DNA from: a virus
Virus record (IMG/VR): IMGVR_UViG_3300034190_001251
Coordinates: 1 to 35,411 of that record
Length of the DNA: 35,411 nucleotides
Reading direction: 5' to 3' (one strand)
Made by a program: the position numbers and the translations under genes. Of this stretch, positions 1 to 23,200 are shown piece by piece. The notes under the pieces were generated by a model, which saw nothing but the letters and a program-made list of their open reading frames with translations, ran no database searches and was not told the origin of the DNA. Numbering within the stretch: the first letter of the stretch is position 1; each line of letters begins with the position of its first letter.

Positions 1-3000
1 GTAAAGCCTCTTAACTCCAGTGTGTACCTCCAAAGCCCCTTCGTATGCGTATGTCTTTGTCTCGAAATTGGCTGCTGTAACAAAAGCAGTAGTAGCTAGC
101 TGAGTAGTATTAGTACCAGCGGCTGCCGTAGGCGCTGCGGGGACACCAGTAAATGTTGGGTCTGCTAGAGGTGCTTTTGCAGCGATGGTAGCTGCGGTCA
201 AATACTCATAAGTTGTTGAATCCGACGAGCCAAGTGCAAACGTCTGTACATGATAAGGGCTAGTGCCCCCCATAGTCGCACCTGCTACACCTTCATTATA
301 TTTAACAAGGCGCCCCCAAGTTTGATTTGTAGTAGTAGAAGCAGAGTTTGAAAACGTAGCCGTGTGAGTGTGACTATCGGCGCTTATAGAGTAGAAATGC
401 AAAGCATCGCTAGTAGTAGCAGTAGGCATAGCAGTTCCTACATCTTGTCTCCACTGCGAAGTTACAACAATATCGCCTTCTACCTTAACCCCGTCTTGGC
501 CGAAGAAAGTGCCTCCCATATTTGCCTGAGACGAGAGAGATACGAACGTATTTGTAATATTACCTGCTAAGTCCCAAACATGAACAACCCCTTTATGGTC
601 AACACCGCCTACATTCAGTACCTGACTGTAAGCAGTAGCTGCTATGTGTGTCTCACTCATACCCATAGCGTTATAGCTGGCACCCCCTGAGACAAACAGA
701 TAAGAGCCATCAGCGCCAACAGGGGCTGCAATCGTAGATGTGACCTCACCGGTAGCAAGAGAGCGTACTACTATCTGAGCTGAAGCGCCTGGATTAATAC
801 TGTATGCAAAATGAGTGCTATTTAAAACAAGAGACGTGCTATTTAAAGTCGAGCCACTAGTTCCTGCAATATTCCACAACTCAGTTCCAGAGATGTCATA
901 GATTCTTACATTACCATATCCCAGACCATCTGTCCCTTCGTGATGACAAATTGCGGCATGTGTACTTGTAAGAGAGACTTCGCCACGACCAAGCAACGCA
1001 AGAGTATTTGCGGTTGAACCAGTTTTATTCCATAAAACACTTTCAGAAGATATGTCTACTAACATTACTCTGCCCGTATTACTATTCTGGTTTGGCATTG
1101 CTACAAGGCATTTACCATTTGCAACAGCAATATGTCTTATTTCGGCTAAAGCGCCAGTCAAGGTTATAGTTTTAATAAAAGACATATTAGACGAGTTATA
1201 AACATGTAATTTATTATTGCTCTCTCCTATAACAGTGTAGGTGCTATCCAGACCCCATCCTGTAACTGACCCATGAGAAACAATGGGAGAAGGCGTTACG
1301 CTTGCTGTAGAGTAGGCAGAGGTAGTAGTTGAGCCTGAAACAAGCTTATCAGGAATGGGTGCTGTTCCCCAGCTCGCATCAGTACCATCAGTAGTTAAGA
1401 ACTTACCAGTGTTATCTGTTTGAGCTGGAAGGCTATCGCCGGCTGCAGCTGTAACAAAAGCAGTAGTAGCTAGCTGAGTAGTGCTGGTACCAGCAGCTGC
1501 CGTAGGCGCTGAAGGTACACCAGTGAATGTTGGGTCTGCTAGAGGTGCTTTCGCCGCTAAAGACGAAGTAGTCGCACTAGCGTCTGCTTTTGCAGCGATA
1601 GAGTTAGTAACTGTAGTTGAGAAGTTGGCATCGTCTCCAAGTGCTGCAGCTAACTCGTTTAGAGTATTAAGAGCAGCGGGAGATGAGTCGACCAAGTTAC
1701 TTACAGAAGTATCTACATAGGCTGTAGTAGCGATAGTATTATCTGGCTGTAGATAGCTCGTTGAGGAAACAGTTCCGTTGTATATACGAATCTTTCCCGG
1801 ATTACCTGTGCCAAAGTTATCATGTGCGCCTGTTACAAATACACCTGGAGCAGCAGAAACAGCGTAGCCCTCTTTGGCATAAAAGGAAGTTCCCAATACA
1901 GAGTATAGCAGACTGCCATCTGTGAGGTCATACAAGTAAGCTGCTCCAGCCGATGTAAAACCTCCAGCAACAGAACTATATGCACCAACAGCCAGATAAC
2001 CACCAGACATGGATACAGTAGACCCAAAAGATGGCCCAGCGCCCGCAACGGTAAGTGTGTATAGAGGCGAGGAAGTAGGAGAGCTTATCAAAGCTGTGAT
2101 ACTATGCACATGCACAGCCCCGTCACTAGGGTAAGAGTCATTAGGCCGGAAAGCAACTAAGTCTCCAGATGCAGAAATAGACCGATTTTCATCAAGGTCT
2201 GACCCATACCTTTTGCCCGCTCCTGGTGTTGGAGGAATTCTAGTACATAGTAAATTACCGTTACTTGCATCAAATATATAGACGAGACCCGCGTTAGCCG
2301 TCCCACCGGGGTTAGCATGGACTGCCGATGCTATAATATAACTTGGAGTTATAGCTAATCCATACTGGCCAAAAGCATCGTTAGTATCTCCTCCATCACT
2401 ATTGGGATTATTAATTGTGTAAAGCAATGCCCCTGTCGTAACATTAAATACGCTAAGGGCGACGTTCGCGCCACTAACAACGGCATAGTTTCCAGAAATA
2501 CAGACCTGATAACCAAACTGTTCAAGAGAGCTACTGAGTGTGTGAAGCAATGCCCCTGTTGTTACATTATAAATATACGCTTTCCGTGCACCCCGCGCGC
2601 TAACAATAAGAGTAGTGCCATCAAGATCTAGAGAGCCTAGGTAAGTTTGAGGAACAACAATAGTTCTTATAAAGGCTCCTGTACGTGCATTATAAACCTC
2701 AATATCATCTCCATCACCATGGCCGGACACAACATAGTCCGCAGTAGCAGCAATAGTATGTCCAAGATAAGGTTTAGCAACCGTTCCATCGTTTTGCGCT
2801 GTCAAGACAGGGCTTGCAGGCCAAGCTACAGTCGTAACAGGGTCTGTCAACTCAAGACCATCACCGATCGCATAACCTGCACCAGCACTAACAGTAGCCC
2901 AGCTCGCAGCTGTGCCATTAGTAGTTAGAAACTTACCTGAGTTGTCTGTTTGGGAAGGAAGGCTATCACCCGTAACCGGAGGAGTATACGTAAATTCTCC

Positions 3001-3198
3001 CGAAGTATTATCATACGCAATACCTCCATCACCAGAGGCGGCAGCTTCTGCACCTACAGAAAGACTATTGAGCTGAATACCGTTAACAGTAGTAACCGCA
3101 TCCCATCGAGTCTTTGTAGAATTATACGTATAAGTGGTATTTCCACTTGTGAGAGTATCCCCGTTTGAGGGGCTACTTGGAAAATTGACGGCTGTCAT
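1..3198 (-). CDS. Tail fibre-like protein with two beta-propeller-like regions (3' end outside window)
   Basis: An uninterrupted frame of 1066 codons runs from an ATG at 3198 to the left edge with no stop, so the gene is partial. The start is supported by AGGAG five bases upstream (3204-3208). Residues about 1-120 are a short fibre head. Residues about 126-480 hold repeated strands of the type VSGNYAVVSG and MSGGYLAVGA, each followed by a GxxYxxD/GxVxVH strand, which resembles FG-GAP/integrin-like propeller blades. Residues about 480-600 carry phage tail repeats ([33 protein letters not shown]). Residues about 620-1000 hold a second set of propeller-like strands, and the tail-repeat motif then returns at the edge. 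It follows its own promoter (3252-3280) and lies last in the fibre array. A host-binding fibre is inferred; the propeller fold is a pattern call, not a domain search. Confidence 0.8.
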   Translation of the reverse strand, partial: MTAVNFPSSPSNGDTLTSGNTTYTYNSTKTRWDAVTTVNGIQLNSLSVGAEAAASGDGGIAYDNTSGEFTYTPPVTGDSLPSQTDNSGKFLTTNGTAASWATVSAGAGYAIGDGLELTDPVTTVAWPASPVLTAQNDGTVAKPYLGHTIAATADYVVSGHGDGDDIEVYNARTGAFIRTIVVPQTYLGSLDLDGTTLIVSARGARKAYIYNVTTGALLHTLSSSLEQFGYQVCISGNYAVVSGANVALSVFNVTTGALLYTINNPNSDGGDTNDAFGQYGLAITPSYIIASAVHANPGGTANAGLVYIFDASNGNLLCTRIPPTPGAGKRYGSDLDENRSISASGDLVAFRPNDSYPSDGAVHVHSITALISSPTSSPLYTLTVAGAGPSFGSTVSMSGGYLAVGAYSSVAGGFTSAGAAYLYDLTDGSLLYSVLGTSFYAKEGYAVSAAPGVFVTGAHDNFGTGNPGKIRIYNGTVSSTSYLQPDNTIATTAYVDTSVSNLVDSSPAALNTLNELAAALGDDANFSTTVTNSIAAKADASATTSSLAAKAPLADPTFTGVPSAPTAAAGTSTTQLATTAFVTAAAGDSLPAQTDNTGKFLTTDGTDASWGTAPIPDKLVSGSTTTSAYSTASVTPSPIVSHGSVTGWGLDSTYTVIGESNNKLHVYNSSNMSFIKTITLTGALAEIRHIAVANGKCLVAMPNQNSNTGRVMLVDISSESVLWNKTGSTANTLALLGRGEVSLTSTHAAICHHEGTDGLGYGNVRIYDISGTELWNIAGTSGSTLNSTSLVLNSTHFAYSINPGASAQIVVRSLATGEVTSTIAAPVGADGSYLFVSGGASYNAMGMSETHIAATAYSQVLNVGGVDHKGVVHVWDLAGNITNTFVSLSSQANMGGTFFGQDGVKVEGDIVVTSQWRQDVGTAMPTATTSDALHFYSISADSHTHTATFSNSASTTTNQTWGRLVKYNEGVAGATMGGTSPYHVQTFALGSSDSTTYEYLTAATIAAKAPLADPTFTGVPAAPTAAAGTNTTQLATTAFVTAANFETKTYAYEGALEVHTGVKRLY
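74..1554 (-). repeat. Direct DNA repeats encoding tail-repeat modules in the propeller fibre gene
   Basis: Positions 74-180 and 1448-1554 match at about 98 of 107 bases, 1374 bases apart (458 codons). They encode the module ADPTFTGVP, APTAAAGT, TTQLATTAFV. The copies flank the second propeller-like region. A second, weaker pair is 1370-1440 and 2900-2970 (1530 apart), encoding a QTDN-GKFLTT module. All offsets keep the reading frame. Confidence 0.85.
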
Positions 3199-3301: not shown

Positions 3302-5101
3302 TTAGGACGAAGTAAATAATCGAACCCACTGCGAGGAGCTACCATCACTATAATATATAAAAGTTTGTAAAACCGAGGGGTCAAACCACATATCTCCTGT
3401 ATCGGGACTAACAGGGGCAGTCTCAGATATAGTAATACTGCCATCAGCACCTGTGTCGCCTTGAGGGCCCGCAACACCTGTAGGGCCTTGAGGGCCCGTA
3501 GCACCTGTGGGACCTGTGGGACCCGTAGCACCTGCAGGGCCTGTAGCACCTGCGGTACCTTGTACGCCGGTATCACCTTGTAGACCTGTCGGGCCTTGTG
3601 GGCCTTGTGCACCATCAGCACCGGCAGGACCAGTAGAGCCATTAGACCCTGAAGGACCGGTGGCCCCAGTAGATCCCGTAGGTCCAGCAGCACCCGCAGG
3701 CCCAGTAGCTCCCGTAGGTCCCGTAGAACCTGTAAGCCCTGTGTCACCTTGTAGACCTTGAGTACCTTGCAGACCTTGAATACCTTGAGGTCCTTGCGCA
3801 CCATCAGCACCGGCTGGACCTGCAACGCCTTGAGCACCTTCCTGGTTCATAGATACCCACTGAGCACCATCAATATCTACATAGTAAGTAAACGTTTTTA
3901 ATACGGAAGGGTCAAACCACATATCGCCATCTGAAGGACTAGAAGGGGCTGTCTCTGAGATTGTCAGAGAAGCATCCTGCCCTTCCGGACCCGCAGGACC
4001 GGTAGCACCAGTATCTCCATTCGCGCCTTGAACACCTTGTATACCTTGAGGGCCGGTAGGGCCTGTAGCTCCATTTGCCCCATTGTTGCCTTGTACGCCT
4101 TGAGGCCCTTGTGAGCCTGTTTCGCCTTGTATACCTTGTATACCTGCCGAACCTGATAAATCTACTACGAAAGAGTAAGAACTACCGTTCCATAGATATA
4201 ACCTACCATTCTGTGCGTCTTCAACATTATCTGTGCTGACTAAAGCAAACTCGCCACTAACTATATCGGTAGGTGAGGTATCTGCAAGAAGATCTGCTTC
4301 ATCTGTATAGGTTTTTGCTATGTTAAACCCTAGACCAGTAGCACCTACATCTCCATCTACACCTTGTATACCTTGTGTGCCTTGCTGACCCTGAGGCCCT
4401 GTAGCTCCAGTAGGCCCAGTAGGTCCTTGATCTCCGGTAATTCCCTGAGTACCTTGAGGGCCTGTGGGACCAATCGCTCCCTGGATACCTTGTATACCTT
4501 GAACACCTTGTATACCTTGTATACCTTGTGGGCCTGTAGCACCTGTAGAGCCAGATAAATCAGCTACGAAAGAGTAAGCAGTTCCGTCCCATACATATAG
4601 TTTTGCGTTTTCCGCATCTTCTACGCTACCCGTATCAATTATTGCGAATTCACTAACGAGTATGTCAGTAGGCTCGGTATCGGCAAGCAACTCAGCTTCG
4701 GAAGCATAAGTTTTTGCTATATTAAAAGCTAGTCCAGTTACGCCTTGTATACCTTGTATGCCTTGTATACCCTGTGTACCTTGAGGACCTCTTACGTTTC
4801 CAGGGTTTAAAGTAGTACCATCATTAAGAATAACTACTAAATTATCTCCGACTACGGTGGCCGAGGATACACCGGCAAGTCCATCTCCCTGAGGGCCTAC
4901 TATACCTTGTATACCTTGTATACCTTGTATACCTTGAGGGCCTATGTTAGAGTAAGTAAGAGAGCTCCAAACAGTTACGCCATCACCTATTTTTAAATAA
5001 TCGGTATCGAGTTCGTAACCTAGTTCCCCATCTGCTAAAACTGGATTTGCGGACGTCCAGTTAGCTGCACTGTCTCTTCTTACTTGAATTTGTACTGCCA
5101 T
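3302..5101 (-). CDS. Collagen-like tail fibre protein with Mtd/hyaluronidase-type N-terminus
   Basis: This 599-residue protein starts at an ATG preceded by a GGGGGAG ribosome site and lies two bases after the stop of the preceding fibre gene. Residues 1-52 ([29 protein letters not shown]) match the small N-terminal domain of many phage fibres, including Mtd-like and phage hyaluronidase-like proteins. The rest alternates Gly-X-Y collagen repeats ([18 protein letters not shown]) with globular inserts. One insert of about 60 residues ([25 protein letters not shown]) occurs twice, near 124-184 and 265-325. Another ([23 protein letters not shown]) occurs near 377-417 and again at the C-terminus. 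A trimeric, rod-like fibre is inferred from the collagen repeats. Which part binds the host is not evident. Confidence 0.85.
4901..4936. repeat. Perfect 9-bp tandem repeat (4 copies) inside the collagen-like gene
   Basis: The unit TATACCTTG (plus strand) is repeated four times without mismatch. On the coding strand it encodes Gly-Ile-Gln triplets. Shorter runs of the same unit occur near 4367-4378, 4488-4528 and 4741-4770. Because the unit is a multiple of three, copy-number changes would keep the frame. Confidence 0.9.
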
Positions 5102-5102
5102 G

Positions 5103-6155
5103 TTATGCTCCCCCTCCGTTAAGGGCTATTGTAGAAGTATTCCTAATTGTTGTTGCTGTACCACCGTCTATATTCAAGCCGCCCCCGTTTGCAAGAACAA
5201 AAGCTGTCGTTGCTACTTGGTTACTATTTGTAGTAGGCGCCGCGGTTGGTGCTGTAGGTATACCTGTAAAATTTGGGCTATTTAAAGTAGATAAAGAAGC
5301 AAGCTCTTGGTCTACATAAGCAATGGATGCTTTAGTGGCAAGAGTATTGTTTACAGAGGAGGCAAAATTACTGTCATCTCCAAGAGCTGCAGCCAGCTCG
5401 TTTAATGTATCTAAAGATTCTGGGGCTGCATCTACTAAATCATTAATTGCATCTGTTACATATTGAGTTGTTGCAAAGTTGGTAAGCGATCCCGGTGTGA
5501 ATGTAAACACACCCGTAGTGTTATCGTATGAAAGAGAGGACCTATCTCCATCAGAAGTTGTTACAGCACTTAAACTAATAAGTTCTATCTTATCTACCAG
5601 ATTTGTAGGGATAATATTAGAAGTATCTCCTACAGAAGTATTTAAAGGAAGTACAACACCCCCAGTATCTGATGCAGAAATAGAAGCTGTTCCGAGTGTA
5701 ATAGTATTTGCTGCAAAGTTACCGGACTCAACAAAAAGATTAGCAAACCTTTTTGTTGGGCTACCGATATCAATACCAGAGTATGTGGTTACATCGTTTA
5801 CAGTAGTACTTGCTGCGTTTATGTCTGGAAGAATTGCGCTATTCAATGCTCCCAATCTTGTATCTATAAAGTCAATAGTAGTTACTATTGGACCTGTGGC
5901 CCCGTTTAAAGGTGTAGGAGCTTGCACTAAACCCGTAAACGTAGGGTTATTTATATTAGCTTTTAAAGATAATCCGGAAACTAAATTACTGTTTACTTGT
6001 AATAAACCTGCGATTAAATCAGCATTTACTTGTCCTACTCCCGTTAATAAATTAGAAAAGTTATTATCAACTTCCTGATTCGTTAACGACCCTAGATCAG
6101 GCTGCCCTGCTAGTGGAAGTCTTAAACGGAGAGTAGGAGAAGTATAAGTAGGCAT
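5103..6155 (-). CDS. Phage tail fibre / virion structural protein
   Basis: This 350-residue protein has no visible enzyme motif. The ATG at 6155 has GAGG just upstream. The N-terminus ([11 protein letters not shown], then [12 protein letters not shown]) is of the type found at the start of many short phage fibres. Tail-repeat motifs follow: [17 protein letters not shown] near residue 68, a coiled segment [14 protein letters not shown] near 250, and [14 protein letters not shown] plus NQVATTAFV near 295-325. The same motifs are in the gene at 1-3198, so the two proteins share modules. It is two bases from the collagen-like gene, which suggests co-translation and a joint fibre complex (inferred). 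Confidence 0.75.
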
Positions 6156-7043: not shown

Positions 7044-9650
7044 TTAATCTCCTATGATTGTGCTGCCGACATATGCTTGTGAAAAATACCCAGATGAGTA
7101 GTTCTGTGAAAATGCAGAAAATGTGTCGTCGGCTAACGCGTTCTCTGCTTGGTAATCTCGTTTATAATTTACTTGTCTATAAAATGTACTAATTGTACTT
7201 AAAAGTTCTTCTGTTGTTTGTTTTTGAATTTCTCGTGCATCTGTATCTGAAGCCTTGAAGAAGTCAAAGCTAAATACAGGTCTAAAAGTATTTGAAGTTG
7301 TCGCAGCATTTACATTTTCGTTTAATTTTTTTAGTGTATCTTTAGTATTTTTAACGCTTAATCCAGCTGCAAACTCGTCAAAAGAAGATATTGGCGATAA
7401 AATACCTGTAACATTTGATGCCTTAACCTTTAGGAGTATAGTTTTATTTTCTAAAGTTGCTAAAGCCGTGAGTTGTTCCCCCTCTGGTAATATAACTTTT
7501 GCAGGTAAAACGTCAACAATAGATGCAACCTCGTCTAAAAAAGTTGCTTTATCTACAAACTTACCTGTTATTCCTTCTATAAGAGCCGTATCTGCTCTAG
7601 GGTATACGGATTCTTCGTAATCTATAATTTTTAGATCCATAAATAAGTCTGAAATATCTGCTTCAAGTATTGCTTTTTCTTTGTTCAATATAACTTTTAC
7701 AGGTAAAACGTAGTCAGTGCGTGCTGAAAATAATTCCGGCTCAAGAGTTAGAGGCAAACCAAAAGACATTTGATCTCGTCCTGCGTATCCGCTTAATAAT
7801 TCTCCATCTCTCTCAGTCATTCTACTATTATTGACTTGAGTCGGATTCCGAGCTACTTTTGTATAATAACCTGGTTCGTAGTAACTAAATACTTGAATTA
7901 CTCTATAGTATGGATACTGTGGCGCTACCTGTCCGGTATTAGTCCTAATATTCAGGAGCAAGAAGTCGTCGGTAGAGCGATTCCTTTGGTAAAACTCGTA
8001 AGTGCCTTGGCTGACAGGAGCATACGTCTCTGTATACACAGCCGGGCCAGGAACATATACTGTATCTAATAAACCATCAGACCAAGTTTTATTCCCATCA
8101 CTATCTTCTTCAAAACTTCTACCTATAATAAAGTCTGTACTTAAAAATCTTCCAACAAGGTGTTCTGCATTTACAGTATCTCTAGCAAGATGTATTTTAT
8201 TAGCAAGTACGTTTTCGTCAAGCTCTACTACATCTTTGAGTCTTGGTGACATATCTAAAGAAACTCCTATTCCTTTAAACTCATTATCATGCCAACGAGC
8301 ACTTTCAACAACTGCTAACTCTGTATCTCTATCAGTAAAAGTGCCGTCCCCTGCAGACCTAGTATACAGATAGTTCGTGCCTTCTGAATAAGTATTATTT
8401 GAGTAGCGCTGGAAGTAGACGTTTTTGGACAGGTGTAAATAAGGTCTTTTGTACTTTGTAACTCCTATATTTAAAAATTTCTTTGGGTCATCTTCAAGAT
8501 TTGCAGTATCATTTCGAAATACAATTCTTGAAGGATAAATTAGCTCATCTAACTCTGCTACATCTTTCAATCGAGGTTTTAAGTCAAAAGAAACTCCTAT
8601 TCCTTTAAACTCATTATCATGCCATCTAGAAGACTCGATGACAGCAAGCTCTGTATCTCTGTCTGTAAGAGGTCCTTGGCCTGCGCTCAGTCTATTTGCG
8701 TTGCCTCCTCCGCCCGTAGTCGCAGTAGTAGTAAACTGAGTATAGTTTTTATGACTTCCATACTGTAAATAAGGTCTTTTAAAAGCTTTAAAAGCTAGAC
8801 CGAATAACTTCTTTGGAGGTGCATCTTCAAGATTTGCAGTATCATTTCCAAGTACAATTCTTGAAGGATAAATTAGCTCATCTAACTCTGCTACATCTAG
8901 TAGTCTTTTTAATGTTTTTGTCTTGGTTGAATCCTCCAGATGGGTTTCATCAAAAAGACTTTTATTAGTACCTTTTTTAGCTAAAGTTGTTATATGGGCC
9001 TGATCTATACTTAGTACGGCTCTTACAGGCTCTATATAATCTGAACTACCTATAAAAGTTTGTAAAGTTGGTTGATATAAAAACTGAGCCAAGTCATCTA
9101 ACTCTGCAGCACTTTCCAATATTAAGTTAGCACTCCAATTCAAGTAAAGAGCTTCTTCAAAAGTTAGTACATCTACTAAACCCTTCTCTACTTTAAAAGG
9201 AAGCAGCTCAGCTCGTGCAAAAGCTATATCCTCCAGCTTTTTCATGGGCTGATTCTTACTGTATTCTGCCACCGAAAAATAGTCTAAAAATGGTGCTTTA
9301 TCTACAAGCTTACCTGCTACATCAGAAAGTTGCGGAATATCTTCAAAAGCTTTCTTTATCTCAAAACCATGTAATGTATCTTCTAAGTCAAGCTGGTCAA
9401 AAGGATTACTATGCCTTCTCATAATTAAGTCTAAATTCAAAGACTTAATCAAAGGGCTTGCCATATTCAAAGTAGAAAAAGTAGCTGAGGTAGTCTGTAT
9501 TCTTCCAAGTGCTATTAAAAGCTCTTCTACTATTGTAGGTTTACTTGTTTCTGAAGATTTTACAGTACCTAAAAAAATACCTCCGGAGAGGTTGACAGTA
9601 CCTAACGAAGGGACAGAAGATATATACGCTAGGCTAAGTACTGCTTTCAT
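7044..9650 (-). CDS. Large repeat-containing structural protein of unknown function
   Basis: I do not recognise this 868-residue protein. Its most striking feature is a repeat of about 110 residues: one copy begins near residue 251 (AELDELIYPSRIV, DTANLED, then TDRDTELAV, RWHDNEFKGIGVS), a second near 362, and a degraded third near 460. Looser relatives of the short unit (P-x-[RK]-x-[IV]-L followed by an acidic residue and xALE) recur before and after, for example VLPVKVILNKEKAILE and VLPAKVILPEG. The C-terminal 80 residues are different (TTEELLSTISTFYRQVNYKR) and end in an aromatic-rich QNYSSGYFSQAYVGS tail. It lies inside the fibre block, after a 51-residue ORF. A virion role is inferred from context only. 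Confidence 0.6.
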   Translation of the reverse strand: MKAVLSLAYISSVPSLGTVNLSGGIFLGTVKSSETSKPTIVEELLIALGRIQTTSATFSTLNMASPLIKSLNLDLIMRRHSNPFDQLDLEDTLHGFEIKKAFEDIPQLSDVAGKLVDKAPFLDYFSVAEYSKNQPMKKLEDIAFARAELLPFKVEKGLVDVLTFEEALYLNWSANLILESAAELDDLAQFLYQPTLQTFIGSSDYIEPVRAVLSIDQAHITTLAKKGTNKSLFDETHLEDSTKTKTLKRLLDVAELDELIYPSRIVLGNDTANLEDAPPKKLFGLAFKAFKRPYLQYGSHKNYTQFTTTATTGGGGNANRLSAGQGPLTDRDTELAVIESSRWHDNEFKGIGVSFDLKPRLKDVAELDELIYPSRIVFRNDTANLEDDPKKFLNIGVTKYKRPYLHLSKNVYFQRYSNNTYSEGTNYLYTRSAGDGTFTDRDTELAVVESARWHDNEFKGIGVSLDMSPRLKDVVELDENVLANKIHLARDTVNAEHLVGRFLSTDFIIGRSFEEDSDGNKTWSDGLLDTVYVPGPAVYTETYAPVSQGTYEFYQRNRSTDDFLLLNIRTNTGQVAPQYPYYRVIQVFSYYEPGYYTKVARNPTQVNNSRMTERDGELLSGYAGRDQMSFGLPLTLEPELFSARTDYVLPVKVILNKEKAILEADISDLFMDLKIIDYEESVYPRADTALIEGITGKFVDKATFLDEVASIVDVLPAKVILPEGEQLTALATLENKTILLKVKASNVTGILSPISSFDEFAAGLSVKNTKDTLKKLNENVNAATTSNTFRPVFSFDFFKASDTDAREIQKQTTEELLSTISTFYRQVNYKRDYQAENALADDTFSAFSQNYSSGYFSQAYVGSTIIGD
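8489..8898 (-). repeat. Near-identical direct DNA repeats in the 868-residue protein gene
   Basis: Positions 8489-8565 and 8822-8898 match at 75 of 77 bases, 333 bases apart. A second pair, 8257-8294 and 8587-8624, is identical over 38 bases, 330 apart. Both offsets are multiples of three, so the protein repeats are in phase. Identity at the DNA level suggests recent duplication or ongoing gene conversion (inferred). Confidence 0.9.
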
Positions 9651-10603: not shown

Positions 10604-13600
10604 TTAAAGTGCTGCTATTATGAATGCGAGTAACTCGCTGTAGCGAACGCCAAGTCTAGTTTTTTCTTCGTTTGTTTCTTCGTCAGTCCAAGTAGTGCTA
10701 ATAAACATTGCATAGTCACTTGCGTTTAATCCTTCAGAACTAAACGCGTCTTGTAGGTCTTGAGCAATGATACCAAAGTGTGTACGAGCTTCATCGCCCT
10801 TCTCATCTACTGAGTCCTTCCAGCGGAACTTGCGTAACAAACCTTTACAAGCTACAGCTACACGAGTTTCTGCATCAGACAGTTCTTCAATATCCTGCTT
10901 TTCATTGCGGTCAGAAGTTTGAATAGTTCCGTTAGTGGCGTAAACGTCATCAAATCTTGCGTTAGATTGACCAAGATCCAAAGAGTTATCATTAGGCAGG
11001 TTTGATAATACATTAAAAGGTCTAATATATTGAGCCTGTTGATAAGAAACATACTGTAATCCAGCAGCCTTGTTACCCATAGATATGTAGCTATCTGTAG
11101 CAGTGCCGTGTACGTTTATCTGACCAGCATTTGTGTTATCTTTGCGGAATACAGCAATGCTACCTGTCGCAGTTAGTTTATTAAGCAATAACGGTTGAGC
11201 TGTTGCTGTAGCTACAATAGCTGAATATGCGCCTGTACCTGATTGCAGCTCTACTCCGGCAGTACCTGTGCTACTAGCAGTTTTATTTACTAGCAATTGA
11301 CCTAAAGTATTAATTCTAACTTTTTCATTACCGCCAATATTAAATCTGTGCTCTGAAGCAATGATTTTATTTATGACATAAGCTGTCCCGCTTCGGTTGT
11401 AATGCTGAGTTGTGTTTAATCCACTTTGATTTGCAGGGAAAAACTCTATCCCTTCAGCGCCATTATTAGAGACTGATAACTTGCCTTGCGGTGTGGTTGT
11501 ACCAATACCCACGTTTGAGGTAAAGTTCTTAACGCCGCCAATAGTCTGAGTGCCAGTGGTATTGACATAGCCAGAACCCTGAACGCCATCGAGTAAGTCA
11601 GCGTCTAAGCCAGAGCCAGCGCCATCGTTGGCAGAGTTCCATTGTTTAGCCCAAGCCGTCCAAGTACCGTTATAGTAATGACGTACATACTTATCATTAT
11701 TATTGTATTGGGAGTAACGCTGCTCAGTTTGCAGACCATTACCTTGGTCGCCAGTTATTACTTCAAGGATACCCGCTGCTAATACAGGGTAATTAGAGCC
11801 ACTTGTTGCGTCAGCGTTTGAGTCTTGAGCGTAATATCCTGTAGTCCTGTATGTGTTTAAATCCTGCGAACCTGCAATCTCAGCGCCAGACTTAAACAAT
11901 TTAGTGCTAGTGTTTAGGTAATAACTACCTTGCTGGTTATCTAACAAGTCAGCATTTAGGCCGGAACCGGGGCCATCGTTGCCTGCGTGCCAGACTTGAT
12001 TTCCCGATATTAAAGCATTAGAAAAATCAACATAAGCTCCACTTCTAGGTCCATGCATAGCGAGAACGCCGGTGGCGTTGTTATCATGCCCCCACATACC
12101 CCACTCACCGTTACCTATGGCTGCAAGCCCTGTCCAAGTGTTGCCGCTTGCGCCTTCAATTGAAGTAGCTCCGCCGCGATAACCAAGCGACATTCCATAA
12201 TTGTCCATACTGGCTGTAGTGCTATTATGCTCTGTGAAGAATATTCGGCTTGAACCTTCTCCACTAGTGTCGGTATTTCCTTCTATAGAAAGGTATCGAG
12301 CGCCAACTGTTGCGCCTGCACCGGGCACGCCCATAGTCAAGAATGAATCGTCAGCGGTTGAGGTTATATTTCCGTTAACGTTTATGCCTGTGCTTTCTAT
12401 ACTTAAAACACCATTTACTCCGCCAGCTTTAAAAGACATGCGGTCTATCAAATGGTTGTAAGTAAGTGCTCCAACATCATTGTCGCCACTGTCGCCAAAC
12501 AACAGCCCAGCTTCTAAAAAGGTAGGGCTAAGAAAAGATATATAAGCGTTTGAATCGTCTTCTATGACCATTGCAGAGTTTACATTAGATGCAAGAGCAC
12601 TAGATTCACCATTAAAAATATGCAGTTTTCTTTCCGGCAAAGTAGTGCCAATACCCATATTACCTGAACTGTTTATTCTAACATCTTCACTACCGCTTCC
12701 GAAGAATCTAATATTACCAGTTGAGCCAGGCTTTAATGTTATATCTGTTATAAGCGCTGTTCCACCTTGACCAATTTCAAGAATACCTGTAGAGCCATGT
12801 CCAATAATTTTTCTTAAATAGTTATTATCATCAGAATATATATAATTATTTTTTTGTATTATTAAGCCAGCATCAGTTGCAGTTTCTATACCTGAAGTAA
12901 ATGACCCGCCTTCAGATACAATTGCTCCATCAACTTGCAGTTTTGCAGCGGGCGAACTCGTACCAATACCCACGTTGCCAGAAGCCAGTAAATTAATATT
13001 TGCAGCTTCAATAGAGAAGTCTCTCCAAGCGCCTGCGTCCCAGTCTCGAGATCGAATTCTTCCCGTATTAGCCCCGGATTGCTGGAAGTCTATAACTACT
13101 GCGTTATTGATTCCAGAGGGGTTACTTCTTACACCCCCTTCTGCTACAAAGGTACCATCCACGTGTAGTTCTTTGACAGGAGCAGTTGTTGCGATACCCA
13201 CACGACCAGCGCTGGATATGCGCATGCGTTCTGAGCCGTTTATATACGTTCGTAAACTACCGTTTTCACGCATATTTATATAGCCGTCATTCGCGTACTG
13301 AAGTATAGACATACCATCAGAAGATGTTGCGCCTGTTGTAACATCAGTAAGATGTAGCTCTGCACCATTACCTGAAGCATGGATGTGCAGACTTGGTTGC
13401 GCGTATGCACCACTAGGCGAACTAGTACCAATACCTACACGACCTGCGCTGTTTATGCGCATACGTTCTGTGTTATTAGTTTGGAATATTAGGTCTCTGT
13501 TATCTCGTAAGTTAAAATATACGTTACCGCCAGTATGCTGACCAATATCTATACCAGTGTATGAAGAATTATTAAATCTAGCGTAAGCAAATCCAGAACT

Positions 13601-16600
13601 AGTCAAATGTAAAAGCTGAGAAGGCGAACTAGTACCAATACCCAAAGACTCCGCAGACGCATCCCAAAAGAACTTAGCCGTTGTGCCTGTGTCCTCGTAG
13701 AAGCTGATGTCTCCTGACTCCTGAACATCTAACAGAGTTTTAGTAGCCCCATCATGGGTTACGCGGAAAGACCTATTAGTAGCAGTGTTGTCTGAGTCAA
13801 TATCTATATAGAAGTTGTTTTTAGCTGTTATTGCGCTGCTAGATTCAGCGTTGAAGCTGTTTATTGAGCCTTCAAATATATTAGCCGTGGCTGTGCCAGT
13901 GACGTTTATGCCATTAGCTGTTAATACGCCAGCTCCAGCATTAGTCCCACTCCCTGCATTAATCTCGACATTTCCATAAAACGTTCCAGCTTTAGGATCT
14001 ACATGACCTGAAGTACCTCTACCATGCAATTCAAAAACTAAACCATTATCTGGTTCATAAAATTTTAAATCAGAATCCGGATAAATGCTTGCAGTTGTTT
14101 CATTTATCACTGTCCAATTAACATCTCTGGCAATACTATTATTAGTGTCCCATGCACTTGCCTCAAAAACTAAAGATGCAGAATCATATTCTTGGTTATT
14201 TATATCTGCCGTTCCTTGCTTTTTTAGACGAACCTGAGTATTAACATTAGCTGTGCCTGATAGGTGGAGGTCTTTGAAGCGTTCAGAAGAAGCGCCAAGG
14301 TCGATGTTGCCATCCGCACTTGTTCCATTGGTATTATATGGTTGAATGTTATCTACTACAGCATCTCTAAAACGAAGACCAGACGCACCAGAACCAATAA
14401 GAAGGTCTGTCCCACCTAAACTACCAATACTACCTACGGTTGTGCCGTCTTTGTAAAACTCTGCAATGTTCCCATCAGATGTTGTTCGGCTAAGATATAG
14501 AGCTGGGCCAGCACTTCTAGTCATAAATGAACGACCTTCAGGGCGTAAATCAATTCCAGCAGTAGTGAAAGCTGATGATGTGCTAGTCTTCCCCACCAAC
14601 AGGTTGCCTGCGCTGTCTATGCGCATACGTTCTGTGCCAGCAGTAGTGACAGCCAAGGTATCTGTTGTAGGTCTATATAAACCTGTGTTGGTGTCGCTAC
14701 CAAAGCTATAAGCAGGGCTTCCAGCAGATCCACCACCTGCATGGACATTAGTTAAGGAAACAGTAGCTGTGCTAGATACCGAAAAGAAACTACCAATACT
14801 TACGTTACCTGATTGGTCTATGCGCATACGTTCTGTATCATTGCCATCAGCATTAGTCGTATGAAAAGTCATCCCATAATGACTACCAATACTATTTAGA
14901 GCGATAGTTTGTATAGATGTTTTTACACCTGCTCCGGGCGCGGAGGCATCAACAGCGGAAACTGCAAATTTACCTATAACTTGATTTAACGCAACGCTAG
15001 TATCTGTATCAGCTATAAGAACAGTAGGTGTGGCAGTTTGACTATTGCCCGTGACTGTGATAGCCCCGGTAGAGATAGTTCCAATGTTGGTCAGGTTGCG
15101 GCTAGAGTCTATTACTGTGGTTGTACCAATTTTGAAGTCTCCATCAGTGCGAACATCTCCCCCAAAATAGTTTTGTACAGCATCAGAAATATAAACTCCG
15201 TAGGCAGTTGTTGGCAGCTCTCCCGCATAGTTTCCATAGTATAGGTAGGTTGTGTTTGTCTGAGATACGCCACTGTTGTTGTCGTATTGAGCGCTGTAAA
15301 CATAGCTAGTACCTAATAAATCACTAGTACCATTTACTTCGATTTCAGAATATGTACCATACGCGGCTGTAACCGCCGCACTGTCTGTGGTGGTTGACGA
15401 TTTAAAATAACCACCATACATGTTATTTGTGTCAGCGGTGCTGTTATCAGACACGGCGACTCCTGTAACGCCGGCAATGTTTTGGACAGCTCCTGCTCCA
15501 CCATTATCTTCTGCTTTAAAATAGCCCCCATAAACTTGACTCGTCTGACCTATCGTAGGAGTAGAAGTAGCATCAGCGAATATTCCGTATACAACGTCTG
15601 CGTCACCTGTGGAATCCACATCAATGTAAGCACCATAAGCTCTATGCTCATTACTCGTATCTCCACCCGTAGCACTAGAATTAATATCTATGTAGAGACC
15701 GCCCTGCTCTCGGTCTGCAGTAGTAGCTGCAGTACCGGAAAGAGTTGATACAATTTCTTCAGCAAAGTAAAAATCTTGATTGGGATTTGTTTGATTTGCT
15801 GTAATTCTTAAAGCACCATTTGGTTCATTATCAACATCAATAACTAATGCACCAGTCAGCGTACCACCAGCAAGAGGCAGGTAGTTGGCAAGAGAGCTGT
15901 CGGCAGCATATCCGGCTAAAGCATGGTCACCCCACCCGTAAGCTGTATTCCAGTTAGTAGAGGTACCTCCAGTGGCTGTGATAATCCCGCTAGAGATAGT
16001 TCCAATATTAGTTAGGTTTCGATTAATATCTAATACAAGTGTACCGTTTGAAGCTAAACCGCCTTGCCTAATATCAATACCATTAGCATCATGATAAGAG
16101 TATGCACTGGTACCTCCAGCTATTACAACTCTATCAGCTGAAGTAGTGCCTGAGGCGTTAGTGGCTAACCATAAACTTCCATTCGTAAGGCCGGGGTTTC
16201 TAGCTATAAAAGCTCCTCCGACAACATTAAAGTTACTAGCTTCGACAGAGGTCGAGAACTCTGCACTTGTACCTGTTAAAGCTCCTGTAAGAGATATTGT
16301 GCCTACAGATAAGTTATAGTTTCCTGCAACTCGGGTGCCCCAAGTATTCCAGCCAGTTCCAGCGGCATTCAATACGCGCAAATTATTTCTTGTATAAAGA
16401 AAGCTGGTCGCTTGTAAGTAACCTCCTGCTGTAATGTCTGTTCCAATCAGAGCACCTGTTATCGTACCTCCTGTAAGAGGCAAGTGTCCAGTCTGTGAAT
16501 AAGCATAGGCGGTGTTCCAGTTAGTGTCATTATAGCCTGTTGCTGTTATAGTACCATTTATAACAACACCGTCATTCTCTAATCTTAGCTTTTCTTCAAA

Positions 16601-17176
16601 GGCGCCGCCACTGCCTCCACGCTTGATAGAAAATACCATGTCAGAACCATAGTCACCAATGCCCCATGTTCCTGTAGATACTTGTTGTATTTGACCCGCT
16701 AAAACATTACCAGAATCATCAGCACCTCTAAACTCAACCGTACCAATAACCTGGTCAGCAATTATACTGGTGTCAGTATTTTTAATTGTTATTGTAGGGT
16801 TTGTTGCAGTCTCAAGAGATATATCACCACTCAGCGTACCACCAGTAAGAGGCAAGTGTCCGGTCTGTGAATAGGTATATGAAGAGTCCCACTGACCTAT
16901 TTTTGTATAACTTAGGGTCGCTTCACTGGCTCCATCATATACTTTAATAACGCCCGTGGAGGGGCGTAAGTCAATATCACCCGATGCCGTACCAATATTT
17001 AGATCGAGGTCTCCGTAGATTTCATTAGGATCGAAAGCTAGAGTATTAGTTCCGTTTGTAATTTGAAGATAACCGTTGGCTATAGTACTTAATCCAATTG
17101 TGCCGGACGAAGTTATTGTGGTTTTATCGCCTACATCAAGGCCATTTTTTACTTTGAAATTCTTATCATTTGCCAC
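10604..17176 (-). CDS. Giant tail fibre with C-terminal S74 intramolecular chaperone
   Basis: This 2190-residue protein starts at a GTG (17174-17176) with GGGGAG nine bases upstream. The body is built from phage tail repeats: LPLTGGTLSGDI near residue 110, related copies near 235 and 432, RNLTNIGTIS, and many copies of ERMRIDSAGN and VGIGTSSP. The last 103 residues are a peptidase S74 domain. Ser2088 of SDRNEK and Lys2093 have the Ser-x4-Lys spacing of the catalytic dyad in the endosialidase family. FGIIAQDLQDAF and the final RYSELLAFIIAAL also match. In that family the domain guides trimer folding and then cuts itself off just before the Ser. The mature fibre would then end at residue 2087 (inferred). 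The gene has its own promoter after J. Confidence 0.9.
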   Translation of the reverse strand: MANDKNFKVKNGLDVGDKTTITSSGTIGLSTIANGYLQITNGTNTLAFDPNEIYGDLDLNIGTASGDIDLRPSTGVIKVYDGASEATLSYTKIGQWDSSYTYSQTGHLPLTGGTLSGDISLETATNPTITIKNTDTSIIADQVIGTVEFRGADDSGNVLAGQIQQVSTGTWGIGDYGSDMVFSIKRGGSGGAFEEKLRLENDGVVINGTITATGYNDTNWNTAYAYSQTGHLPLTGGTITGALIGTDITAGGYLQATSFLYTRNNLRVLNAAGTGWNTWGTRVAGNYNLSVGTISLTGALTGTSAEFSTSVEASNFNVVGGAFIARNPGLTNGSLWLATNASGTTSADRVVIAGGTSAYSYHDANGIDIRQGGLASNGTLVLDINRNLTNIGTISSGIITATGGTSTNWNTAYGWGDHALAGYAADSSLANYLPLAGGTLTGALVIDVDNEPNGALRITANQTNPNQDFYFAEEIVSTLSGTAATTADREQGGLYIDINSSATGGDTSNEHRAYGAYIDVDSTGDADVVYGIFADATSTPTIGQTSQVYGGYFKAEDNGGAGAVQNIAGVTGVAVSDNSTADTNNMYGGYFKSSTTTDSAAVTAAYGTYSEIEVNGTSDLLGTSYVYSAQYDNNSGVSQTNTTYLYYGNYAGELPTTAYGVYISDAVQNYFGGDVRTDGDFKIGTTTVIDSSRNLTNIGTISTGAITVTGNSQTATPTVLIADTDTSVALNQVIGKFAVSAVDASAPGAGVKTSIQTIALNSIGSHYGMTFHTTNADGNDTERMRIDQSGNVSIGSFFSVSSTATVSLTNVHAGGGSAGSPAYSFGSDTNTGLYRPTTDTLAVTTAGTERMRIDSAGNLLVGKTSTSSAFTTAGIDLRPEGRSFMTRSAGPALYLSRTTSDGNIAEFYKDGTTVGSIGSLGGTDLLIGSGASGLRFRDAVVDNIQPYNTNGTSADGNIDLGASSERFKDLHLSGTANVNTQVRLKKQGTADINNQEYDSASLVFEASAWDTNNSIARDVNWTVINETTASIYPDSDLKFYEPDNGLVFELHGRGTSGHVDPKAGTFYGNVEINAGSGTNAGAGVLTANGINVTGTATANIFEGSINSFNAESSSAITAKNNFYIDIDSDNTATNRSFRVTHDGATKTLLDVQESGDISFYEDTGTTAKFFWDASAESLGIGTSSPSQLLHLTSSGFAYARFNNSSYTGIDIGQHTGGNVYFNLRDNRDLIFQTNNTERMRINSAGRVGIGTSSPSGAYAQPSLHIHASGNGAELHLTDVTTGATSSDGMSILQYANDGYINMRENGSLRTYINGSERMRISSAGRVGIATTAPVKELHVDGTFVAEGGVRSNPSGINNAVVIDFQQSGANTGRIRSRDWDAGAWRDFSIEAANINLLASGNVGIGTSSPAAKLQVDGAIVSEGGSFTSGIETATDAGLIIQKNNYIYSDDNNYLRKIIGHGSTGILEIGQGGTALITDITLKPGSTGNIRFFGSGSEDVRINSSGNMGIGTTLPERKLHIFNGESSALASNVNSAMVIEDDSNAYISFLSPTFLEAGLLFGDSGDNDVGALTYNHLIDRMSFKAGGVNGVLSIESTGINVNGNITSTADDSFLTMGVPGAGATVGARYLSIEGNTDTSGEGSSRIFFTEHNSTTASMDNYGMSLGYRGGATSIEGASGNTWTGLAAIGNGEWGMWGHDNNATGVLAMHGPRSGAYVDFSNALISGNQVWHAGNDGPGSGLNADLLDNQQGSYYLNTSTKLFKSGAEIAGSQDLNTYRTTGYYAQDSNADATSGSNYPVLAAGILEVITGDQGNGLQTEQRYSQYNNNDKYVRHYYNGTWTAWAKQWNSANDGAGSGLDADLLDGVQGSGYVNTTGTQTIGGVKNFTSNVGIGTTTPQGKLSVSNNGAEGIEFFPANQSGLNTTQHYNRSGTAYVINKIIASEHRFNIGGNEKVRINTLGQLLVNKTASSTGTAGVELQSGTGAYSAIVATATAQPLLLNKLTATGSIAVFRKDNTNAGQINVHGTATDSYISMGNKAAGLQYVSYQQAQYIRPFNVLSNLPNDNSLDLGQSNARFDDVYATNGTIQTSDRNEKQDIEELSDAETRVAVACKGLLRKFRWKDSVDEKGDEARTHFGIIAQDLQDAFSSEGLNASDYAMFISTTWTDEETNEEKTRLGVRYSELLAFIIAAL

Positions 17177-17277: not shown

Positions 17278-20200
17278 CTATGCTGGGAGTAATTGTTTTG
17301 CCACTTTGTATGTAGTAGAGGTTGCAGTAGCACCTACAGCGAATACTCTTACTACTCCTGTACCTAAAGTTACATCATATGTAGCTAAACTGCCGTTTGT
17401 AAGTACAGAACCGTACTGAGTTGAGACTGCAGTTGTACCATTATGGGTAACTAAAAGTTCGCAGATATGTCGATTCGTACCTTCAGAAGCGCAGATAGTT
17501 AGCTTTGCACCTACAAAGTCAGCTGCTACAAAGCTAGCAATTTCTGTAGAAGTAACAGACGCTACATCTGTAGTTTCTGAAGCAAGTGTTAAACCGCCAG
17601 CACCAACTGAAAGATTTGTAGCAATATCGAGAGTAGCGTTGTTAAATACATCTTGAGTATCGCTTTCTCCATATCCGACACGAATCTTAGAAGCAACAGT
17701 TAGCTTACCGTCGGTAGACAAAGCCATTGCACCTTGAGCAGTTGTATGCACATCATCGCCCCACCAGAAGCCTCGGTCATTATCACTATTCATCTGAAAG
17801 GTCATTGCCCAGTCAGAGTTAAGAGACCCGAAGTTAACGCCAGACTGCATACCAATAGCATATGTACCTACACTATATACTCTTAACTTATCTCTCGAAG
17901 AAGAGGCAGGCATTTGAATACGAGTTGCTTCAAGCTGGTCTACTAGTAAGTCTGCTCTGTTATAAGAAGGGTGCGCAGTATCAATAAAAACAGCTTCATC
18001 TGGTTCAGGTGTATACTGGTCAAATAACTTCCATACGCCATCATCAGCGTCTCGGAACAAACCAGCATGAGCATAGCTAGTATCAAAGTATCCTGCAGCA
18101 AAACCTAAATCTGGATTAGCATTAGTATGAGCTCTTGCAGAACCTCCGGAAACATAGGTACCTGTGGCAGTGTTTTCTACAGTAAACGTATTAGCAGTTA
18201 CAGCTGTAATAAGCTCTTCTACTACGTTATAAGCAGCAGGCGTGATGCCTACAACATTCACGGACATTCCAGTAATATACCCATGATTCTCAGAAGTTGT
18301 GTAAACTATTATTGTTCCATTTCCTACTGCATTCGTAATTGTAGTTTGAATGGCGTTGTTCAGGAAAATCATATTATCGGCAACAGTTAAGTTCTGAGCA
18401 CTTACTGTGGTTGTAGAGCCTCCAACAACAAGGTCTCCTTCTATGGTGACGTTATTTTCAAACGTTTTATCTCCGCTAATTGTTTGAGCACCCGTAGTTC
18501 TTACAACAGTAGAGTCTACAGCTAAATTTGCTTCCCCAGAAGTTGCTCCGCCAGATAAACCATCACCTGCAATAACTGCTGTTATATCTCCAGCTCCTGG
18601 TGCGGTACTACCTCCTCCATTTGATATAAGGAAGCCAGCAGTAGAAGTAGGTAAGCTCGCAGTAAAGATCCTAGAACCTTCTACAATACTTGTTGCGCCT
18701 GTAGTAAGAAAATCTACTTCTATATCAAAGTAATATGTACCCGCTGTTAAAGATACAGTAGTACTCTTTTCAATAAAACCCTGAGCATTTACAGCTCCTG
18801 CAAAATTGCTAAGTACTACACTGTGGTCAGCTTCAATTAAACCGTCAGATACAACGTTATCTAAATCCGGTGTTACTAAATATTGCAAGGAAGTTGGAGT
18901 GCCTGAAGTTACTCTCTGAATAGGTGCCGCAGTCCAGTTGTCTAGTCTTAAAGTAGGGCTAGTATCAGTAGGGCTGTTTCTTTGGAACAAGCGAGTTTTT
19001 ACTGTGTTTGGGATACTGTCTAGCACTGCTTGAGTTAAGTCAGGCACTGCAGTAGTGTTTACAGTGCTTCCTGTTCCGGAACCCACTCGTGTAATTTCAT
19101 AATATTCCCAAAGACCAGCAAAGTCAGTATGCCTAAGTACCGTACCTTTTGTATAAGTATAGCCTCCTGTAGTAATCTCGTTAACGGTATCAGCAGTAGT
19201 CTGCAAAAGAATGTCATTCCACATCCAATAATGCAAATTTTCAAAAAGACTAGCAGGTCTTTTTAAAACATAATATTTTGGGCTGGTTGATTTTGCATAG
19301 TAAGTCTCATCTACTTCTCCGCCAGCTTTAAAAAGTTGATCACCGGTAGTTGCTGCCCCTACTCTGAAACTAAACTCTTGCCCTGCTACAACTTTAAAAT
19401 AGAGTACGACAGTATTTTCGTTAGAAAGCTGCGTTACACTCGGCCATGCACTACCATCTACTTTGGTAGCTCCAATTACATTTCTTATATTTTTACTATA
19501 GTTAACTACTAGTGTAACTCGTACGACTTCGCCTCCTTTTAAAGCTCTTCCTAGCGGTTCTGAAACTCCGTTTCGTATTACTGTTAGATTAGCATTTGTT
19601 GTTCTTTGGTGGTATTCAAAACCTCTAACTTCTAGATTTACGGCAGTCTCTGGGGTCTGTCCTCCAAAGTACTCCTCACTTAGATAGCTACTAAAGTTAG
19701 AAACATTTACGGCGCTTTTAAAAGTTACGTCGGCTGGTTCGGTAAGTACTATCTCTTGATAGGTTGTAGCATCCCCGCTATTGAGGTCTCCAGAGAGATT
19801 CTTTGTTATGTTATATACACGAGAACTTGTCGCGCCAGCAATCTGTGCTATGGCCGTCTCTGTGAAACCTCCCTCAGAATCAAAATACACGGCGCCAGCA
19901 GAGTCAGATAGTTGTATATTCTTTGCTCTAACTAAGCCTTCTTTTGTCACGCTGAAAGGGGCTTGTAGAGGGCTTTCAGATCCTGCGTATATTCTGAAAG
20001 TTTCGTTTGCTCCATCTAATGCTGCGTAAGAATTATCGACAATAATATTGTTTTCTTTTGTATAAACGGCTAGCTTCGTGTTTTCGTTTATATTACCGCC
20101 AGTTATAGTACTTTGTGCTATTTCAGTGTGAGTAACAGTACCATCTTGTATATTATCAGCAACAATTGTTTGGTCAGCTACTTCACTATTTGTTACACTT

Positions 20201-23200
20201 TTAGGTTGGAGTATTTGAGAAGCTTCATTAACACTAGCATTTACAGTTACTAAAGGAACTGTGAAATATCCGTCTTCGGTTCTATAAACTCTAGCTATAA
20301 CTGTATCATTGGTGTAGTCTACAAAGATATTAGACGTTTGAAATCCTTGAGAAAAGTACGCAGGTACAATAGCTCTGTCTAAAACGAGTTCGGTATCACT
20401 TTTAATATACGCGATTCTTGCTACTTCAGACTGGCTGACAGCTTTAAATATCTCTCCAACTTTACACTCTGTAGTAAAGCTAGTTCCTGTTCCTATAATT
20501 CTACTTCTATTTGCTGCCTTAATTATAGTGCCTGTCAGAGTTGTGAGACCTGTTGTCTCGCTGCCTGTTCCTGCCTCAAACCAGTAGGAATGAGTATCAT
20601 TATACTTCATCAATTTTAAACGATCATCACTATCGCTAGCATCAAGCATGACATAGGCATGTTCTGATATAAAAGCACCTGGAGAAGATTGCTCTACTTG
20701 TGTAATTACAGGTAAGTCTGTACAAACTTGCTTGTATGTCGCATCAATATCTTCAATGTTTGAAAATACCGCTGCAGTAGGATGTGAAGATTCAATTGTA
20801 TAATTAAATCCGTGCGAGTCTGTTCCAAGCATGAAAGTGCCTGATTCATTTATAGAAAGACCTACATTGCTGCTTCCTCCATAAGGTAGGCCTTGCGGCA
20901 GCCTAACAGTCTTTGTAGAGAAACGGTCAAGTATAGTTACTGTAGTTTTTACAAGTATGGATCTATTGCCTAAAGTGTTTATAGTTCGCACACCTAGAAC
21001 ATAAGTCCCATCTTCTACGCCTGTAAATTCAATACTGGTACTATCGCTACTGACTAATATAGGGTTAGGATGCGAGGGCATATTATGAAAAATTTCATAC
21101 CCTGATATAAACTCATAGTCAATGCCTGCAAAATCTACTCCGTTCTCGGGGGCGGGAGGAGTCCATTGCAATGTAAATTCTTCGCCTTCTACCAAAGAAA
21201 CAGGTGTAATTAAAGCATGGGGCTCTAAAGGTGGAGGGACTATAGAATCTGGATTTACTGAAGGAAGTACATTTTCTTCAACATAAAGATTAAACTCCTT
21301 GTCTACTGCATCAAATTTCTCATTATAATGAACCACCGCTGTAATATCGTATTTATCTTCTGAACCTTGAGAAATTGATAGTACTTTATACTGCTTTGCA
21401 GAACCCAAGACGGTAGAGCCATTAATTGACTCTTTTAACATCCATACAGTAGCGGCAGCTGGAGTAGTAGTAAATGCAGTACCTACGGTTAAAGAGGTTA
21501 CATTACCAGATGGAGTTGTTACTTCTTGAGTCTCAACACGAGTATACTCAGACCAATTTACTTGAATAGGGTTACCACTATCATCTACTAAATTACTTGC
21601 ATCTTCTTCTGTGGTTATCGACGGAACTAAGTCGCCTTTATTATATACTACTGTGTCAATTACTGACTCGCCTTCTGTAATAATAAAAGCGCCAGGCTCT
21701 ACTATAAGTACACTTAGATCATAGGTTGAGCCAGATGCAAGCGTAACAGTAGAGTCTATTGGTATAGTAGTTGTGTTTCTAGTACCTACGGAGGGTATGC
21801 GTCCGCTGTACCTTATCGCGAAGCGATCAGCGTCCTGAACATTTACTATGTCCCCCGGAGCTATGAAAGCTGCATTTATAGAAGTGGAGAAAGAAACAAT
21901 CTCTGTTTGGTTAATTGCTGTCCAAAGCTTCCATCTACCATATCGAATAGCTTGGCCTTCGCTTGTGGCTCCAAATGCTACGGCTTCGGAAGTTATGATC
22001 TGCCCTGTTTCTATTATATTATTTCTGTCCTCGATCAATACCGGAACGGAATTATAGTTATTGGCTGGGTTATTCCAGCTAACATATATTTGATTTGCGC
22101 GAGTTTTACTTCCTGTGCCTTCATAGCTAAACGAGCCGTCTAGTATGTTACCTTTTGTAAAGTTATATACGGGTTCTTTAGGTTGATCCGTGACTGCAAA
22201 AACCTGTCCGTCTAGCCAGTAGACCATACTTCTAAATACTGTGGCAAAGTCTTTTATAACTTTGTAAGCATCACTAGATTTTGTAAGATATATATTTGCA
22301 GTAAATCGAGGCTCTAAACCTCCTTTACCGTCTGACACAAGTTCGTCACAGTATCTACCAATTCTATATAGAGCATATTTATCTATTTGCGCAGTATTTA
22401 AGAAAGCTCCTAAACCGTACCGGTTGTTTACTAGTATATCATAAAAAATCCACGCAGGATTATTAGTATATACTTTAACAGGTCTAAACAATCCATTCCA
22501 AGCTTGATAGTTTGCTTCTATAGTGCCATTACTTGAATTACGAGTGTATTCAGCAATACCTGTACTGCTTTCTTCGCGAGTCACATAGTTAGAAGGAACG
22601 TTTACTAACAGACCTCTTGCGTGGTAAGTACGAGTAGGCATACTATTAAACTGCTTAGAGCTGAAAGTAACGTTAGAGTATGCAGTGTAAGGATGATTTA
22701 ATCGTTCTTTAATAGTAGTAGTAACGCTACTAATAGTAACTTCGGCAGCTGTGTTAAGCTTTCCAGTACGGTCCCCATATTGATCGTAGCTATCCCCTGT
22801 GTGTGCAGTTTTTCGAGAGATAGTGACTCTAAAGTTGCTATAAGGTTTGAAAGGGCTTAAATCAATAACACTTGAAAAACTATACGCATCTTTTGATTTA
22901 CCTCCATGTCTTAAATTACTGGCAACAATTACTTCGTCTGTCCACTCGTTGGGGCTGTCCAACGTAGCAAAAGCAATACTAACTTTAAAAAAGACATAGT
23001 TATGTCTGTCTCCCTCACCATCTTTTCGGCTAGAGTATAGTCCATTTCCATAACTATACACTACTCTAATTTCGTCTGCTTCTTGAGCTTGTTCAGGGGT
23101 CAGATTAAAGCCTTGCGTTTGAGAAGTAGCCACTAATTGCAAAGGTGCTACACTTCCCCCAGCAAACTCAGTAGACTGCTCTAAAGGAGGTCCTCCAGTA

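Follow-up and report, generated by a model that had tools for sequence, protein, structure and literature searches.

Gene setting and modular layout

What kind of protein is encoded by the long open frame at the left end of this 35,411-base virus record (all of it referred to here as the window), and does it carry two genuine beta-propellers? Our reading, to which we give a probability of roughly two in three, is that the gene encodes a side tail fiber of a lambda-like siphophage with two different seven-bladed propellers, each set between like joint and shaft modules. An earlier note made from the sequence alone had described a stop-free frame of 1066 codons in which tail-repeat modules alternate with two propeller-like regions, and both points are borne out. 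On the minus strand, the frame extends from an ATG at position 3198, with a ribosome-binding-like AGGAGA just before it, down to position 1; since it reaches the left edge of the window without a stop, the gene is truncated at its 3' end. The features used below are as follows.

1..3198, minus strand: tail-fiber gene, 1066 codons visible, 3' end lost at the contig end; AGGAGA; PHROG tail-fiber matches
2977..3198, minus strand: N-terminal anchor, residues 1-74; common to related contigs L002 (100%), L257 (74%) and L258 (62%)
2898..2970, minus strand: joint module copy 1, GDSLPSQTDNSGKFLTTNGTAASW, residues 77-100; precedes propeller 1
1738..2841, minus strand: propeller 1, residues 120-487; modeled with seven four-stranded blades, FG-GAP_2/integrin-alpha type
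1552..1740, minus strand: helical shaft linker, within residues 487-549; phmmer and PHROG matches
1445..1557, minus strand: shaft module copy 1, AAKAPLADPTFTGVPSAPTAAAGTSTTQLATTAFVTAA / PTFTGVPSAPTAAAGTSTTQLATTAFV; after the linker, before joint copy 2
1368..1440, minus strand: joint module copy 2, GDSLPAQTDNTGKFLTTDGTDASW; precedes propeller 2
184..1362, minus strand: propeller 2, about residues 613-1005; probably seven-bladed, in no named family
71..183, minus strand: shaft module copy 2, AAKAPLADPTFTGVPAAPTAAAGTNTTQLATTAFVTAA; behind propeller 2
1..69, minus strand: first residues of the C-terminal part, NFETKTYAYEGALEVHTGVKRLY; truncated at the contig end
3302-5101, minus strand: collagen-like fiber gene, upstream of the two-propeller gene
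5103-6155, minus strand: short fiber gene with the same linker type as the two-propeller fiber, upstream
10604-17176, minus strand: S74-chaperone fiber, upstream of the two-propeller gene
17278-24114, minus strand: J-like host specificity protein, upstream of the S74-chaperone fiber

The two-propeller gene closes the visible part of a lambda-like siphophage tail operon. Beyond the J-like gene lies a full lambda-like tail set that reaches a head-tail connector at the right end of the window; the operon order is head-tail connector, tail terminator, major tail protein, tape measure, M- and L-like minor tail proteins, NlpC/P60, tail assembly, J-like protein, and then the fibers. Two more genes, along with small genes, lie on the minus strand between the short fiber gene and the S74-chaperone fiber. 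Its place downstream of the tail set and of the other fiber genes marks the two-propeller gene as a late fiber gene of a siphophage. Assignment to the phage tail fibers came from this position and from PHROG 2631 (7e-38), which was matched through the helical linker; the linker accounts for the best PHROG fiber matches and is also related to the tail collar fiber 9d93 gp4 (phmmer, 8.8e-11) and the phi80alpha upper fiber 6v8i gp68 (phmmer, 4.4e-4). An NCBIfam search returned no match, nor did tblastn with the whole protein against 50,697 phage records.

Two neighboring proteins have features of their own. The collagen-like fiber (3302-5101, minus strand) has an Mtd N-terminal domain (PF18454, 2.4e-16), a family of major tropism determinants diversified by diversity-generating retroelements (DGR). 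At 7044-9650 (minus strand) lies a protein of 868 residues that matched no family. It has direct repeats, each about 110 residues long (RDTELAVVES.RWHDNEFKGIGVS...RLKDV), and its DNA holds exact repeats of 46 nt and 38 nt about 330 nt apart.

Both propellers are bracketed alike, with a GKFLTT...SW joint in front and a PTFTG...TTAFV shaft module behind. The two joint copies, on the N side of the propellers, are 82% identical in DNA over 73 nt, and the figure for the two shaft copies, on the C side, is 90% over 113 nt; exact sequence common to the flanking copies reaches 35 nt at most. The repeats that had been proposed are thus real and present on both sides, but they are not identical as claimed, and this degree of likeness indicates diverged duplicates or separate recruits.

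Repeats of this kind raise the question of whether the double propeller is an assembly chimera, formed at the repeated modules of two strains' fiber genes. The contig does end directly behind a repeated module, and the fiber gene of the related contig L002 breaks off in the same part. However, the copies differ to the extent just given and share no exact stretch beyond 35 nt, the frame is intact through 1066 codons, and another contig, L009, also has two propellers in one fiber-like frame; we therefore regard a chimera as very improbable. A search for the sequence beyond position 1, with a degenerate pattern for the last 13 residues, matched no viral contig.

Propeller 1 is an FG-GAP_2 propeller

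The resemblance of region 1 to FG-GAP or integrin blades that had been suspected was confirmed by both profile and modeled structure. Pfam FG-GAP_2 (PF14312) matched above its cut-off in three stretches (1.9e-9, 38 bits versus 23), and internal repetition was significant, with a self-alignment score of 148 compared with a maximum of 66 in 60 shuffles. From an alignment of 12 sequences, AlphaFold2 predicted seven four-stranded blades (pLDDT 80.7, pTM 0.86) in a closed propeller, the last blade being completed by the N-terminal strand. When this model was compared with solved structures by VIA-align, integrin alpha (4wk0) ranked first (Z 30.8, 325 residues, rmsd 2.9 Å), with WD40 propellers close behind; the best PDB matches by Foldseek were Fbw7 and WDR5. 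BFVD yielded viral matches as well, among them a virion protein of cyanophage S-TIM5, Agrobacterium phage Atu_ph07, and Pithovirus FG-GAP proteins.

Relatives of propeller 1 were found by motif. The degenerate blade pattern VY[VI]FDxxTGxLL led to 14 viral contigs with ORFs that match propeller 1. By tblastn against the 50,697 phage records, region 1 had no more than weak matches, in the phages nt-1 and C48C1, and an exact-peptide scan of genome contigs found no relative.

Several other propeller classes were considered and rejected. The earlier note's suggestion of a PQQ-like propeller found no support, as neither region matched a PQQ family in the Pfam profile search up to E 10, and the PQQ motif is absent. 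WD40 family membership was rejected because only sub-cut-off WD40-like Pfam models were matched, the best at 15 bits. An integrin-type calcium-binding FG-GAP propeller was rejected on the lack of repeated DxDxDG loops: one loose DLDEN occurs in propeller 1 and none in region 2. The five-bladed platform of phi11 does not agree with the seven blades of the propeller 1 model. Sialidase Asp-boxes were found in neither propeller, and with both these and PQQ motifs absent, an endosialidase-like or PQQ enzyme is unsupported.

Region 2 is very probably a diverged propeller

As had been supposed, the two regions are not close copies of each other: BLASTP aligned them at about 21 to 23% identity, with an E value of 6e-6 when composition correction was left off. 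Region 2 matched no Pfam family up to E 10, FG-GAP_2 included, and had no convincing match among PDB sequences. Its self-repeat score of 62 was reached by 5 of 60 shuffles and is not significant. No match was found by tblastn against the 50,697 phage records, and exact-peptide scans of viral and genome contigs found no relative; a region 2 blade motif had no match, and a looser version led to FG-GAP propellers without a close relative.

More sensitive comparisons pointed to a propeller. Among 3760 ORFs from the fetched contigs, the seven best phmmer hits of region 2 (best, 2.1e-5) were without exception ORFs matched by the propeller profile; FG-GAP propeller ORFs made up 7 of its top ten hits versus at most 4 of 10 for 40 shuffled versions, none of which equaled the strength of these hits. 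A propeller profile aligned weakly with region 2 in hhalign (probability 25%, E 8e-4 as a single comparison), and MAFFT placed seven region 2 blades in register with those of other propellers. The AlphaFold2 model, made from an alignment that included ten distant propeller sequences, has six clear blades and a weak seventh (pLDDT 68.3, pTM 0.75), with pLDDT below 60 at the ends and in the seventh blade. In VIA-align, it matched the CylK propeller over about 325 residues at Z 28.7, and integrin and WD40 propellers at Z of about 26. Since propellers were present in its alignment, the model is support for the fold rather than proof of it.

An alternative is that only region 1 is a true propeller and that region 2 is some other beta-rich domain, which took on a propeller-like look from an alignment laden with propellers. 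The missing Pfam and PHROG matches, the nonsignificant internal repeat, and the low scores at the ends and seventh blade would fit this explanation. Sequence searches alone, however, put FG-GAP propeller ORFs in the top seven places, as happened in no shuffle, and six of the modeled blades are mostly well scored within a long structural alignment, and so we consider this alternative rather unlikely. On the strength of the modeling and the searches together, region 2 is very probably a propeller belonging to no named family.

FG-GAP propellers are present in the structural proteins of many environmental phages, yet neither region matches any PHROG family up to E 10, so annotation misses such domains.

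Related contigs point to exchange of domains at the joints

The earlier note had suggested that one of the propellers could have been inserted or swapped by means of its flanking repeats, and comparison with three related contigs supports this idea in kind. L002 carries the same gene: its anchor protein is 100% identical, and the DNA is 98% alike across the first 221 nt. It has 34 additional residues between anchor and joint, and its propeller 1 is 91% identical to that of the window; its sequence diverges after PTFTG and is without the linker, at a junction that fits recombination at a short ACTAC match. Upstream of the fiber gene, L002 has a different gene, and the DNA likeness ends at the end of the window's collagen gene. 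L257 and L258 (anchors 74% and 62% identical) have other domains behind the anchor.

The L257 protein (286-2280, plus strand) combines a similar anchor and shaft module with a different beta-rich middle of about 400 residues, and the protein has no Pfam or PDB sequence match.

The GKFLTT motif is a widespread joint in phage fibers: it was found in at least 118 viral stretches, where it stands before many unrelated sequences; in none of these was a propeller detectable by profile. Domain mosaicism is well documented for tail fibers (PMC10684548). Since L002 retains the anchor and propeller 1 with altered flanks, and L257 and L258 differ behind the anchor, domain exchange at the fiber joints is well supported at the sequence level. 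We postulate that the shared modules would serve as joints, with binding domains gained, lost, or substituted by recombination there. The GKFLTT motif offers a handle for finding exchangeable binding cassettes, and two unlike propellers between matching joints provide a clear, testable model for the gain and exchange of such domains.

Possible roles of the propellers

By analogy with established fiber biology, the chain would trimerize as other phage fibers do, in which case the shaft of each fiber would be surrounded by propellers in two tiers of three. The propeller faces with long inter-strand loops would then bind molecules on the surface of the host, probably glycans. Of the 33 amino acid differences in propeller 1 that separate the window from L002, 21 fall in residues 181-260 (blades 2-3). 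The D-A and B-C loops of propeller 1 are for the most part the long ones; differences occur at 17 of 132 positions in these and at 15 of 211 elsewhere (p = 0.087, not significant), which gives only a hint that the long-loop face meets the receptor.

The C-terminal domain of phage fibers is often the receptor-binding tip. Here the truncation leaves that domain outside the window, and the propellers could be mere spacers or lateral decorations of the shaft, with binding left to the missing tip or to another fiber. The same operon does encode other candidates, the S74-chaperone fiber and the collagen fiber with the Mtd-like N terminus, and in phi11, whose propeller is a presumed GlcNAc binder, a GlcNAc soak did not reveal binding (PMC4901313). 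On the other side, the concentration of window/L002 differences in two blades of propeller 1 speaks for a role in contact, and for receptor-binding proteins of other phages, contact between propeller and glycan has been proposed or is known (PMC4901313). We consider a purely decorative role somewhat unlikely, though a real possibility. If the propellers do bind, they could form a dual-specificity fiber in which domains of different descent recognize two surface molecules and the shared modules allow them to be traded as cassettes; we offer this as a tentative proposal with clearly less than an even chance of being correct.

Comparison with known propeller fibers

The statement that propellers are unusual in phage fibers was too strong. 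They are known in phi11, PRD1 P2, phiKZ gp131C, and the endosialidases of K1F and phi92 (PMC4901313), and FG-GAP propellers are encoded by many viral contigs. FG-GAP-like propeller sequence was detected in 59 ORFs of the fetched contigs, a count that carries no frequency because the contigs were picked by motif. Contigs L011, L013, L015, and L017 have frames of 3000 to 4000 residues with several propeller regions, apparently interrelated, and the phage contigs L151, L169, L200, L218, and L246 have adjoining frames in runs, each with propeller sequence. What is unusual is the arrangement: two unlike propellers spaced along one chain. We found no description in the open-access literature of a fiber in which shaft modules separate two unlike propellers of seven blades each.

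The closest solved fold to propeller 1 is the integrin alpha beta-propeller, also with seven blades, at about 15% identity. Among phage proteins, Gp45, the receptor-binding protein of Staphylococcus phage phi11, is a trimeric siphophage fiber whose chains each have a propeller placed between the stem and the tip (PMC4901313). That propeller has five blades and a proposed GlcNAc site (PMC4901313), one per chain as opposed to the two seven-bladed propellers here, and no sequence match to it was found. The seven-bladed propeller of phiKZ gp131C, likened here by description, is a proposed receptor-binding domain (PMC4901313), but it is the single C-terminal propeller of a myophage baseplate protein, unlike a two-propeller siphophage fiber. 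The eBAP3 fibers of eCIS, also likened by description, combine propeller lectins with collagen shafts on phage-derived particles (PMC12923769), which differ in type from the siphophage tail here.

At the sequence level, the nearest systems are the FG-GAP_2 propellers of phages (for example nt-1 AGN30308.1 and the environmental contigs L009, L010, L016, and L221), which share the blade pattern FGxxVxIxxxxxIVGA...GxxYIFDxxTGxLL and match propeller 1 over its full length. The "FG-GAP repeat protein" of Vibrio phage nt-1 (AGN30308.1) is a single stand-alone propeller gene, unlike the two-propeller fiber. In L009 (10898-13708, minus strand), a collagen shaft is followed by 14 FG-GAP_2 repeats, which make two adjacent propellers. 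In the window, by contrast, a helical linker and two shaft modules lie between the propellers, and the second propeller, unlike that of L009, has diverged beyond the FG-GAP_2 family.
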